Origin: Bacteroidia bacterium
GTDB lineage: Bacteria; Bacteroidota; Bacteroidia; Flavobacteriales_D; Cryomorphaceae
Assembly (NCBI GenBank): GCA_030427905.1
Contig: JAUICL010000010.1
Location: 1-64,000 of the forward strand
Direction: 5' to 3'
Length of the DNA stretch: 64,000 bases
The translations under genes were made by a program, and so were the position numbers. The notes below the pieces were generated by a model. The model saw nothing but the letters and a program-made list of their open reading frames with translations. It did no database searches and had not been told where the DNA came from. This document shows positions 34,798 to 56,835 of the stretch, piece after piece; within the stretch, counting starts at the first letter, position 1; each line of letters opens with the position of its first letter.

Positions 34798-35292
34798 ATG
34801 GAAAATCAAGTTAAAGAGAAAACATTCGATAAATTGGGCTTCAATCAAGAGGAAGCTGGAGAAATTGTAGGGGCTTTAAACCTGCTTTTGGCTAACTACG
34901 CTATTGTTTACCAAAAGATCAGAAACTACCACTGGAATGTAGTAGGGGATGATTTCTTTGAAATTCACGAAAAGCTCGAAGAAGAGTACACTGCCGCTTC
35001 TGAAGCGATTGATCAAATTGCAGAGCGCGTGCGCATTCTAGGGTTCAGACCACTGAGCACTTACGCCGAATTCTTGGAGCATGCCGACATTGAAGAACCA
35101 AAAGGCGCTGTGAAATCAAGTGACATGATGCCCGATGTGGTCAGCGATTTTCAAACCCTTCTTTCTTTTATGATCGATGTAGCCGATGTGGCTACCGAGT
35201 TTGGCGACTTGGGTACCGAAACATTGATGAGATCAATGGTAACCGATCTCGAAAAGAAAAATTGGATGTATTCTGCTTACCTCCAGGGATAA
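34798..35292 (+). CDS. dps: Dps-family ferritin-like DNA-protection protein
   Basis: 164 residues; a four-helix ferritin-like dodecamer subunit that oxidises and stores iron and shields DNA. The first-helix ferroxidase motif NYHWNVVGDDFFEIHEKLEEEY (His, Asp, Glu) is visible at about 42-63, followed by the ASEAIDQIAERVRILG helix. Start taken as ATG 34798 (MENQVKEK); the reading frame extends upstream to 34750 but that lies over the promoter. Followed by a 540-nt non-coding region with two RNA-like elements. Confidence 0.93.
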   Translation: MENQVKEKTFDKLGFNQEEAGEIVGALNLLLANYAIVYQKIRNYHWNVVGDDFFEIHEKLEEEYTAASEAIDQIAERVRILGFRPLSTYAEFLEHADIEEPKGAVKSSDMMPDVVSDFQTLLSFMIDVADVATEFGDLGTETLMRSMVTDLEKKNWMYSAYLQG

Positions 35293-35379: not shown

Positions 35380-35567
35380 CGCTGATAATCAGCGGTTAGT
35401 TTTCGACGATGAAAAGTCAATAAGTCTTGTTTCCAAAGGTCTTTTGGTATGAAAGTTGAAGTATACTTGTAATGTAAGCATCTTATTTCATTATGTGTCG
35501 TTCGACACGATTGGAACAAAATGATTGGTTAAACAGAAAACCCGCCAAACGAGGCGGGTTTTTTGTT
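35380..35567 (+). ncRNA. Candidate small RNA, element A
   Basis: Proposed order: hairpin CGCTGA-TAA-TCAGCG (35380-35394); hairpin TTTTC-GACGAT-GAAAA (35400-35415); a hairpin around CCAAAG...TTTTGG; conserved block GTAAGCATCTTATTTCATT (35474-35492); variable hairpin GTGTC-GTTC-GACAC (35495-35508); GATTGG (35509-35514) and GATTGGTT (35523-35530); terminator (35537-35567). A TAAATTCG at 35367-35374, one mismatch from the -7 consensus, would give a start near 35380. The 5' boundary is an estimate. I do not recognise the family. Confidence 0.65.
35537..35567 (+). terminator. Terminator of element A
   Basis: AAAACCCGCC pairs with GGCGGGTTTT around loop AAACGA, followed by TTGTTTTT. Confidence 0.9.
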
Positions 35568-35641
35568 TTTAAGAAAGGGGGGGAGAATTTAATGTTGATT
35601 GTATATAGTATGAGAATTGCGTCAGCGTGAAAATTTTAAGA

Positions 35642-35810
35642 TTCTTTCGCATTGCGAAGGAAAATTCAAAAAAAATCACAAAGCGTGAAACTTAAAACGT
35701 TTATTCCCGTTTAAGGGAGTGTAAGCATCTTATTTCATTCAGAACTGGTTATTCTGATTGGTTAAAATGATTGGTTGAAAAAGCCCCGCAAACGAGCGGG
35801 GCTTTTTTTT
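35642..35810 (+). ncRNA. Candidate small RNA, element B
   Basis: Same order as A: strong hairpin TTCTTTCGC-ATT-GCGAAGGAA (35642-35662); a TCCC-GTTTAA-GGGA hairpin; the same 19-base block GTAAGCATCTTATTTCATT (35721-35739); variable hairpin CAGAA-loop-TTCTG (35740-35756); two GATTGGTT boxes (35756-35763, 35769-35776); terminator (35779-35810). Block-to-second-box spacing is 29 nt, against 30 in A, although the hairpin between them differs in sequence. The 5' boundary is an estimate. Confidence 0.65.
35779..35810 (+). terminator. Terminator of element B
   Basis: AAAAGCCCCGC pairs with GCGGGGCTTTT around loop AAACGA, the same loop as in element A though the stem differs; at least eight T follow. 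Confidence 0.92.
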
Positions 35811-35834
35811 ATACTTCAATATGTTGTTTCAATC

Positions 35835-36689
35835 TTACTTTGTAATCACTACAAGATACTTACTCGCACTCCAGAATTTGAATGGATCAGTGATTTTTAA
35901 TGTCTTCTCTTCTTCACCTTCCAGTACATAAGATCCTTCCGGGTGAGTAGTCGCAAATTCTACTTTTGCTGCATTTAGAGGAATACTCATAGCTTGTGTG
36001 ATATCAACTTCGGCAAAGAAATCCGAGTTAAAATCTTCCTTAAGTTGCTTCGATCCACCCATTCCGATGATTGATCCATCTTTTTCAAGAACGCCATTGT
36101 CTTTCAAATCCTTGAAAGTACCAATTGCGAAATAAGCTCTATTGAGCTCGTCGGCCTGAATTTGAATAATATCTGCTTGGATCTCGTTTCTGAATTCCGC
36201 TGAATCCAACATTTCATTCAAGATTTCGATGGTGAAATTCGCAGCGGTCAAATTCTCCTTCAAATAGGCAATCTCTTCCTCTTTGCTTTCAATGTCTTCA
36301 GACAATTGGTTGAGCATGTTCTTCATGCTTTCCGACTCTGTACCGTAGGCTTTGAGCTGTCGGTCCATTTTTTCAATTGTAGACTTGTTGTCAGCCAATA
36401 AGTTATTGATCGCCTGAATGTCCTTAGTGATGGCTTCTCGTGTATCGGTTCCTTCTTTGAGGTCTCCCATGCTCACTTCTATATTGTCTTCTCGTTGGCT
36501 GATAAGAGCAAGATTTTGCTGGATACTCGCAAAACTCTCTTCGAAAAGCGTGAGTGTTGAGTCCTTAACATCCAATTCGCTTTGAAGCGCTTGGTTTTCT
36601 TCTTGAAGTCTATTGATTTCCTCTTTTTTGCTTGTGCCACAGCTAGCCAAAATAACTGCAGAGATGAACATTAGAGCAATTTTTTTCAT
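35835..36689 (-). CDS. Coiled-coil lipoprotein
   Basis: 284 residues: a lipoprotein signal (MKKIALMFISAVILASCG, lipidated Cys17) followed by a long charged coiled coil (about 20-175). A smaller globular C-terminal part (about 180-284) contains AYFAIGTFKDLKDNGVL. No known enzyme motif. The long helix could span part of the periplasm. I start at ATG 36689 because the lipobox follows at the right distance; the frame extends upstream without signal-like sequence. Convergent with element B, whose terminator lies about 25 nt away. Function unknown. Confidence 0.85.
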   Translation of the reverse strand: MKKIALMFISAVILASCGTSKKEEINRLQEENQALQSELDVKDSTLTLFEESFASIQQNLALISQREDNIEVSMGDLKEGTDTREAITKDIQAINNLLADNKSTIEKMDRQLKAYGTESESMKNMLNQLSEDIESKEEEIAYLKENLTAANFTIEILNEMLDSAEFRNEIQADIIQIQADELNRAYFAIGTFKDLKDNGVLEKDGSIIGMGGSKQLKEDFNSDFFAEVDITQAMSIPLNAAKVEFATTHPEGSYVLEGEEEKTLKITDPFKFWSASKYLVVITK

Positions 36690-36732
36690 GTCTTGGTTTT
36701 TAGATATGGGGTCAAATATAAGGTTAAGTTGA

Positions 36733-37230
36733 TTAATCAAGGTCGTATTCTGAGTGTCCATGACTTTCAATAGGTAAGTCAAACCCATCTCTAATTTCTG
36801 GGTGTCTAATTTCTCCCCCCGATTTTGCAGCAATCAACATATATCCCGTGCTGCCTAGAGAGCCTAACATGACAAGTATGGTGAGTAAATGGGCAAACGA
36901 TCGCTTTTTGACATTTGCCCAAAGCGCCACGACTGCCAGTAATCCAAGAAAAAGGGCAAATGTACGGGCACCTTCTCCTTTTTCTTCATGTTCATGTATC
37001 ATGTCGTGAAGCCTAACTTCATGTAGCATTTTCTCGACGATTTCTTCGGCATCTTCCCCAGTACTAACCACAGGTATAGCTGTAGCTCCGGCGAGAATCA
37101 AAAAGACAAAACCCAAATTCTTGATTCCATGGCTTCTGAAGATCAAGCCGATTGAGATACTGATTAATGCAAAAAATGTGGCGAAAACCGGAAGGTGATT
37201 CAATGCCAAATGGGCCTGTGCAGCGTTCAT
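36733..37230 (-). CDS. Four-helix membrane protein (DUF2231-like)
   Basis: 165 residues starting MNAAQAHLALNHLPVFATFF. Four hydrophobic helices (about 14-32, 40-58, 93-112 and 120-140) are separated by a His/Glu-rich loop (HEVRLHDMIHEHEEKGEG). The early HLPVF motif and helix arrangement resemble small cytochrome-like or DUF2231-type membrane proteins of Bacteroidota, and the several histidines could bind heme or metal; this is inference. ATG at 37230 chosen; an upstream in-frame start at 37299 adds 23 polar residues before the family-like opening. Confidence 0.72.
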   Translation of the reverse strand: MNAAQAHLALNHLPVFATFFALISISIGLIFRSHGIKNLGFVFLILAGATAIPVVSTGEDAEEIVEKMLHEVRLHDMIHEHEEKGEGARTFALFLGLLAVVALWANVKKRSFAHLLTILVMLGSLGSTGYMLIAAKSGGEIRHPEIRDGFDLPIESHGHSEYDLD

Positions 37231-56406: not shown

Positions 56407-56594
56407 GTTTTACAATTTGTCTCATAATAATTTGGCTTCTAAGCTCTAGCAGATCAATTATTCATCGTCGGTCATAAATATCTTAATTTTTACCTTTTTT
56501 TCAAAAAATTATACGCTTTACATGGACAGGTGAAAGCCCGATTCAATTTTCGATGAGAAAATGAATCTTTTTCGCAACCTTAAATGCGGGTGCT

Positions 56595-56645
56595 GCGTAC
56601 ACCGAGATGTAAGCATTTTATTCTATAGATATTTGATTGGTTGAA
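56595..56645 (+). repeat. 50-bp direct repeat, copy 1 (element C)
   Basis: Starts GCGTACACCGAGATG and runs through the conserved block and GATTGGTT to the terminator. Identical to 56752-56802 except for one extra G there. Confidence 0.9.
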
Positions 56646-56679
56646 TGATCCCGGAGCACATCTGGGATCATTTTTTTTT
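56646..56679 (+). terminator. Terminator of element C
   Basis: TGATCCCGGA pairs with TCTGGGATCA (one G-T) around loop GCACA, followed by nine T. Confidence 0.92.
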
Positions 56680-56751
56680 ACCCTTTTTCCAAGGGGATTG
56701 GACTAAACTTTAAAAAAGGTGAACTTTTTTGAAACCTTCTTTGAGAAGGTC

Positions 56752-56802
56752 GCGTACACCGAGATGTAAGCATTTTATTCTATAGATATTTGGATTGGTT
56801 GA
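56752..56802 (+). repeat. 50-bp direct repeat, copy 2 (element D)
   Basis: Matches 56595-56645 with a single inserted G before GATTGGTT. Confidence 0.9.
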
Positions 56803-56835
56803 GCGATCCCAGAGAAAACTGGGATCGCTTTTTTT
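56802..56835 (+). terminator. Terminator of element D
   Basis: AGCGATCCCAG pairs perfectly with CTGGGATCGCT around loop AGAAAA, followed by seven T. Confidence 0.93.

Follow-up and report, generated by a model that had tools for sequence, protein, structure and literature searches.

Predicted structured small RNAs in several copies and a complementary partner RNA, mostly with ECF-type promoters, in Cryomorphaceae

Two elements with one 5′ block and different stems

In the genome of a bacterium of the Cryomorphaceae (Bacteroidota; assembly GCA_030427905.1, contig JAUICL010000010.1, positions 1 to 64,000 of the forward strand; this whole stretch of 64,000 nucleotides is called the window), two neighbouring short elements, A and B, start with the same sequence and then diverge, and still seem to fold in the same way. 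This raises the question whether the fold is under selection at the RNA level, as an earlier note on this DNA had suggested, and what such RNAs would be for.

Both elements lie on the plus strand, A from 35474 to 35565 (from the block to the end of the terminator) and B from 35721 to 35808. The features described for them were all found when the sequence was read directly: the 19-base block GTAAGCATCTTATTTCATT is identical in A (35474-35492) and B (35721-35739), and the identity runs one base further 5′ (TGTAAGC). With up to three mismatches allowed the block occurs twice in the window, with 0.03 occurrences expected. It is followed in A by the hairpin GTGTC-GTTC-GACAC (35495-35508; arms at 35495-35499 and 35504-35508) and in B, at the same place and from unrelated sequence, by CAGAA-CTGGTTA-TTCTG (35740-35756; arms at 35740-35744 and 35752-35756). 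A has one GATTGGTT motif (35523-35530) and B has two (35756-35763 and 35769-35776, together spanning 35756-35776); the distance from the block to the last of them is 30 nt in A and 29 nt in B. The terminator hairpins (35537-35562 in A, 35778-35807 in B) have different stems, AAAACCCGCC/GGCGGGTTTT in A and AAAAAGCCCCGC/GCGGGGCTTTTT in B, and the identical loop AAACGA. Of the 44 terminators identified across 0.86 Mb of the host genome (G000), only these two have this loop.

Folding agreed with the proposed structures: none of 200 dinucleotide shuffles folded as well as A (z -5.1) or B (z -4.7), mostly owing to the terminators. The small hairpin alone, in a 26-nt region compared with shuffles, was not significant in either copy (p 0.06 for A and 0.10 for B), and the evidence for it therefore had to come from relatives.

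Covariation in the full-length copies

We searched related genomes with a covariance model of the family (R1; the RNAs are called sRNA1 below) and aligned 21 full-length copies from the fetched Cryomorphaceae loci (alignment A4), to which a pair-count covariation test was applied in place of R-scape. Standard pairs fill 96.6% of the pair cells and in 11 of the 17 pairs both positions have changed, three of five in the variable hairpin and eight of twelve in the terminator. The covariation score is 0.452, compared with 0.215 for column shuffles (0/500 reach the score) and at most 0.163 when the pairing is slid by one to three columns; because A4 was built to fit the model and has recent duplicates among its rows, these figures lean upward, towards structure. 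The exchanged stems can be read in the raw sequences and in MAFFT alignments too: CAGAA/UUCUG, CAGAG/CUCUG, CGGGG/CCCCG, CGGAG/CUUCG and GUGUC/GACAC. Pairing is thus kept while the sequence changes, in both the hairpin and the terminator, which supports the proposed selection on RNA structure.

A multicopy gene family with conserved neighbours

In a search of 60 related genomes the block was present in all eight Cryomorphaceae, with scattered imperfect matches elsewhere. R1 likewise found sRNA1 in 8/8 Cryomorphaceae genomes with E values down to 4e-18, many of the matched copies being those that built the model; A matched with 78.4 and B with 102.5 bits. With two to six copies per genome and a conserved 5′ block, sRNA1 resembles multicopy sRNAs with a 5′ seed of the FopS type, and by sequence A and B are paralogous copies of one small-RNA gene family.

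The window holds two further, shorter copies on the plus strand, which the earlier note had missed: C (56609-56673) and D (56766-56831). This short form has a variant block, GTAAGCATTTTATTCTAT, a single GATTGGTT and a terminator, and no middle hairpin. Neither the hairpin nor the terminator loop is hence universal: the short copies at 56609 and 56766, as well as those of two other genomes (G002 and G007), lack the hairpin and have other loops. Of the idea that pairing at the hairpin position is retained in relatives, the part on full-length copies stands, since these covary, and it does not extend to the short form. The suggestion that the terminator loop itself matters fares similarly: [AU]AACG[AU] is found in most full-length copies, the short copies differ, and we found no role for the loop. 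The loop of the middle hairpin contains UGGUUA in most copies, A being the exception, and the linker holds one or two further copies of this sequence.

The loci are conserved. The full-length array, usually tandem, immediately follows dps in 7/7 genomes in which the locus is assembled; in the window the dps-type ferritin-like gene is at 34798-35292 on the plus strand. On the other side, most of the dps-linked loci have a convergent gene for a Cbp1-family coiled-coil lipoprotein (35835-36788, minus strand). A weak antisense match to R1 (35777-35863, minus strand, E 0.0015) covers the terminator of B and faces this lipoprotein gene; it probably reflects merely the symmetry of the terminator. Copies C and D precede an SDR gene, behind which comes a VOC-type dioxygenase-like gene, and this arrangement, short copies included, recurs in G002 and G007. 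Because of these conserved loci we regard the sRNA1 elements as syntenic genes and not as scattered repeats.

Outside of the family the signal fades. A class-wide search for paired GATTGGTT gave matches at chance level only. Order-wide, R1 found weak, plausible relatives in the families f2 and f9, which lack the block and keep GGUUAA repeats, and many other weak matches that resemble bare terminators. The former, in part arranged in tandem, are short RNAs that combine an ECF-type promoter with GGUUAA repeats and a terminator (genus g40 of f9: L105-L108 and L111; g37 of f9: L119 and L120; f2: L112); they are possible diverged relatives of sRNA1.

Rfam had nothing above the gathering cut-off in the window, the lax threshold giving sub-threshold matches only, and no account of sRNA1, or of the partner RNA introduced below, in Cryomorphaceae came up in the literature searched. 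Two other explanations were rejected. A phage or mobile origin was dismissed as there was no phage match and no viral contig, and plasmid matches were confined to a short segment at the terminator of A. Peptide coding was considered because many full-length copies contain AUG-AUU-GGU-UAA; this is absent from copies 3-5 of G004 and from the short forms, and there is therefore no conserved open reading frame.

An ECF-type promoter before most copies

A pattern [GTA]AAC-N14..17-CGT, ending 8-12 nt before the block, precedes 20 of the 27 sRNA1 copies, compared with 0.34% of shuffled upstream regions. When the promoters are aligned, AAC and CGT are 16-17 nt apart and CGT is 8-11 nt from the block, and this includes copy C, which the strict rule had missed. 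AAC-N16/17-CGT is the layout of ECF sigma promoters. In Flavobacterium psychrophilum a CGT-box motif has been ascribed to ECF sigma factors (PMC9723704). Judged by this pattern, most sRNA1 copies have an ECF-sigma-type promoter directly before their 5′ end. All three such promoters in the window are on the plus strand: that of B at 35689-35710 (AAC 35689-35691, 16 nt, CGT 35708-35710, 10 nt before the block), that of C at 56576-56598 (AAC 56576-56578, 17 nt, CGT 56596-56598) and that of D at 56733-56755 (AAC 56733-56735, 17 nt, CGT 56753-56755). No ECF-type promoter was found in the region upstream of A, which has only a weak likeness to a primary-sigma -7 box; the paralogues may thus be controlled differently.

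The promoters also bear on another reading of the array, in which the elements are no more than terminators in tandem, or a 3′ part processed from the transcript of dps. They have the same direction as dps, lie directly downstream of it and end in strong terminators, as this would predict. However, most copies have ECF-type promoters of their own, the conserved block is far from the terminator, a second hairpin covaries and the short copies are at an unrelated locus, and we consider this explanation highly improbable.

A second RNA complementary to the block

Some matches to the block were found in the opposite orientation, with a terminator next to them. Taken in the reverse sense, these belong to a second RNA, sRNA2, with the order: promoter of the type GGCAAC-N15-CGTCT, short 5′ part often with ACCA, hairpin, reverse complement of the block, terminator. 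A covariance model (R2) found sRNA2 in 8/8 Cryomorphaceae genomes, five of which had trained the model, and in none of 28 genomes of other families, the f2 and f9 relatives included. There is a single sRNA2 per genome. In the host genome it lies at G000:C1:579001-579117 on the minus strand, next to an HlyD gene; in seven genomes it adjoins a YceI-domain gene, a DUF2141 gene or both. Rfam searches of the sRNA2 contigs returned only a tRNA and a DUF805b motif.

The predicted duplexes between sRNA1 and sRNA2 of the same genome are 3.9-6.3 standard deviations more stable than those with shuffled sRNA2, with at most one in 200 shuffles better: sRNA2 has complementarity to the conserved pairing region beyond chance, as expected for a sponge. 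In two genomes (G003 and G006) the 5′ part of sRNA2 is predicted to pair with the GATTGGTTAAAATGATTGGTT linker as well. The length of the pairing varies, with only eight consecutive pairs in G003, and in a cross-genome energy matrix the pairs from one genome were not uniformly the strongest. When the eight genomes were searched for the complement of the 16-nt core of the block with at most one mismatch, all sites belonged to sRNA1 or sRNA2, with one exception in G006:C67.

In the host genome, C and D each form 19 consecutive pairs with sRNA2, 17 of them Watson-Crick and two G-U (z -6.6 and -6.8, 0/1000 shuffles), while A and B are interrupted by one C-A mismatch. The host sRNA2 departs from the common form just where C and D depart from A and B, and this shared change is, at the level of sequence, the best evidence that the two RNAs are evolving together. 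sRNA1 and sRNA2 probably pair with one another in the cell, with Hfq apparently missing.

The block could also be a DNA operator, bound by a repressor at the transcription start: its core is nearly dyad (the imperfect palindrome TAAG-CAT-CTTA) and has a fixed position after the CGT box. Against this, the conservation extends asymmetrically (TATTTCA), and in sRNA2 the stretch, with its asymmetric extension, is inverted and lies far 3′ of the promoter, right in front of the terminator. Moreover, the change common to C, D and the host sRNA2 keeps the RNA pairing, though it would keep a double-stranded DNA site too. We give the operator very little credence.

Other genes with the sRNA2-type promoter

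In six of the eight genomes, GGCAAC-N15-CGTCT also precedes the gene of an ECF sigma factor (Sigma70 regions 2 and 4), a pattern consistent with autoregulation. The two groups of promoters differ: those of sRNA1 carry CGTT or CGTA, those of the type of sRNA2 and the ECF sigma gene carry CGTC, and they may or may not share one sigma factor. In several genomes the likely start codon of the sigma gene (G000:C3:535719, L169) is a few bases past the promoter, and the transcript would be near-leaderless.

Six genomes have the same pattern before a gene for a small multi-spanning membrane protein of about 145-155 amino acids with the motif IVPIWNFIVFLRIVGRPA (G000:C5:35054, which is L177, and L164, L167, L170, L173 and L174). 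A third short RNA, with a GGCAAC-N15-CGTCTT promoter, the conserved core GGUUUCAAAUUUUCCUUGCAGGUUU and a terminator, is present in 8/8 Cryomorphaceae (G000:C5:961528, plus strand; L181, L157, L162, L163, L166, L168, L172 and L175), and when up to three mismatches are allowed its core turns up in 39 of 199 genomes from the order, spread over families f1, f2, f7, f9 and f10. In G002:C411 (L163/L171) a further, sequence-divergent RNA, TTTCGCAGGTTTAAATCGCTCC, with the same promoter pattern lies 133 nt from the third RNA.

RNA-binding proteins and possible targets

Hfq (PF17209) was detected in none of the eight Cryomorphaceae genomes, with the control search positive in 5/14 genomes, E. coli included, and RRM proteins of the RbpB type (PF00076) were equally undetected in all eight, the control Bacteroides genome being positive. 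Pairing between the RNAs would therefore need another chaperone or none.

The same searches bear on the possibility that sRNA1 titrates an RNA-binding protein with its UUGGUUA repeats, as a CsrB-like sponge, with the block as a mere handle for turnover. Two or three UGGUU motifs, in the loop and the single-stranded linker, are indeed present in 16 of the 18 copies listed, and it is the GGUUAA repeats and not the block that the weak f2 and f9 relatives have kept. Yet no candidate protein was found, a single full motif is all that the short copies and copy A have, and the best-conserved part of the RNA is the block; a protein sponge seems improbable to us.

For mRNA targets, duplexes of the block, the C/D block and the linker were scanned against translation starts, middles and 3′ regions of 684 genes, with no excess over shuffled queries, and among these genes block and linker complementarity was not enriched for secreted proteins. 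The sample is about a quarter of the host genome, with simple start calls, and its outcome speaks neither for nor against mRNA regulation, that of envelope proteins included. AACCAAT at the start marks single candidates: a TolC-like gene, a ferritin gene and the HlyD neighbour of sRNA2.

The strongest rival explanation reverses the roles: sRNA2 regulates mRNAs, and the sRNA1 copies are decoys that titrate it through their 5′ block. The excess of sRNA1 copies over the single sRNA2 would fit, as would a block with no mRNA target signal and, apart from one site, no other near-complete complement in the genomes. Still, the conserved stretch of sRNA1 coincides with the predicted start of the transcript, where sRNA seeds usually lie, and its complement in sRNA2 sits just before the terminator, while the UGGUU repeats of sRNA1 would be left unexplained in some genomes. 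We think this reversal unlikely, even if it is the best of the alternatives.

A model for sRNA1 and sRNA2

The explanation that we favour, and consider probable, is that sRNA1 are stress-induced, trans-acting base-pairing sRNAs with an antisense antagonist, sRNA2. A, B, C and D would encode regulatory RNAs about 65-95 nt long, each made from a promoter of its own, mostly by an ECF sigma factor, and ending at the intrinsic terminator. The 5′ end UGUAAGCAUCUUAUUUCA would be the pairing site (35474-35492 in A), and the middle hairpin and the terminator stem would lend the RNA structural support, shielding it and keeping the UUGGUU motifs open in the loop and in the single-stranded linker. The strongest partner would be the ECF-driven sRNA2, the 3′ part of which may pair with the 5′ block and the 5′ part, in some genomes, with the UUGGUU linker. 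Once bound by sRNA2, the 5′ block would no longer be available, and sRNA2 is therefore most likely an antagonist (sponge) dedicated to the multicopy sRNAs, which when free would pair with mRNAs and act on them. The presumed transcription, the duplex formation in the cell, the direction of the antagonism and the putative mRNA targets are thereby set upon what can be read in the DNA itself: the family, the covariation, the promoter pattern, the synteny and the complementarity. A more radical version is possible, if rather doubtful: an Hfq-free, RNA-only ECF circuit in which sRNA1 and sRNA2, both made from ECF-type promoters, keep their complementarity throughout the family by two-sided change and are each other's main partners, in place of mRNAs.

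Comparison with known systems

Like sRNA1, FopS of Bacteroides thetaiotaomicron (compared by description) is a group of multicopy paralogous Bacteroidota sRNAs with a conserved 5′ seed that is apparently Hfq-free; it has 14 separate gene copies under the housekeeping sigma factor, is bound by the RRM protein RbpB and represses susC-like mRNAs (PMC11697453). sRNA1 differs in being tandem and mostly ECF-driven, with no RRM protein and no target class found. LhrC1-5 of Listeria monocytogenes are multicopy too and carry short motifs redundantly, both in a hairpin loop and in the single-stranded stretch that precedes the terminator; they are induced by envelope stress and bind Hfq, and their CU-rich UCCC motif is also in the terminator loop (PMC4132741). 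In contrast, the motif of sRNA1 is UGGUU and is absent from the terminator loop, the UCCC motif was not found, and neither was Hfq.

The sigma-E sRNAs of E. coli, such as RybB, with the sponges RbsZ and FtsO, offer a parallel to such a pair of RNAs: the sRNAs belong to an ECF envelope-stress response, keep a conserved region for pairing and are themselves bound by other, separate RNAs. They work with Hfq and down-regulate outer-membrane-protein mRNAs, and FtsO is internal to an mRNA (PMC7815308). Unlike the RybB sponges, sRNA2 has an ECF-type promoter of its own, and no Hfq was found. Within the Flavobacteriales, Rfp11 and Rfp18 of F. psychrophilum are conserved sRNAs, compared here by description: Rfp11 is listed under the CGT-box, the ECF-type promoter motif, and Rfp18 is tied to metalloprotease mRNAs via its third stem-loop (PMC9723704), a layout different from that of sRNA1. 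There are precedents for multicopy sRNAs, for ECF-driven sRNAs and for sponges; their combination without apparent Hfq and with a two-sided change of the pairing is new.

Few cases of base-pairing regulation are known from Hfq-less Bacteroidota. sRNA1 and sRNA2 offer a conserved, compact pair linked to ECF-type promoters, with a defined predicted pairing site and natural changes in both partners, and there is a culturable host, Cryomorpha ignava. Two questions would thus become testable: how sRNA pairs meet without Hfq, and whether ECF responses of Bacteroidota have sRNA arms like that of E. coli sigma-E.
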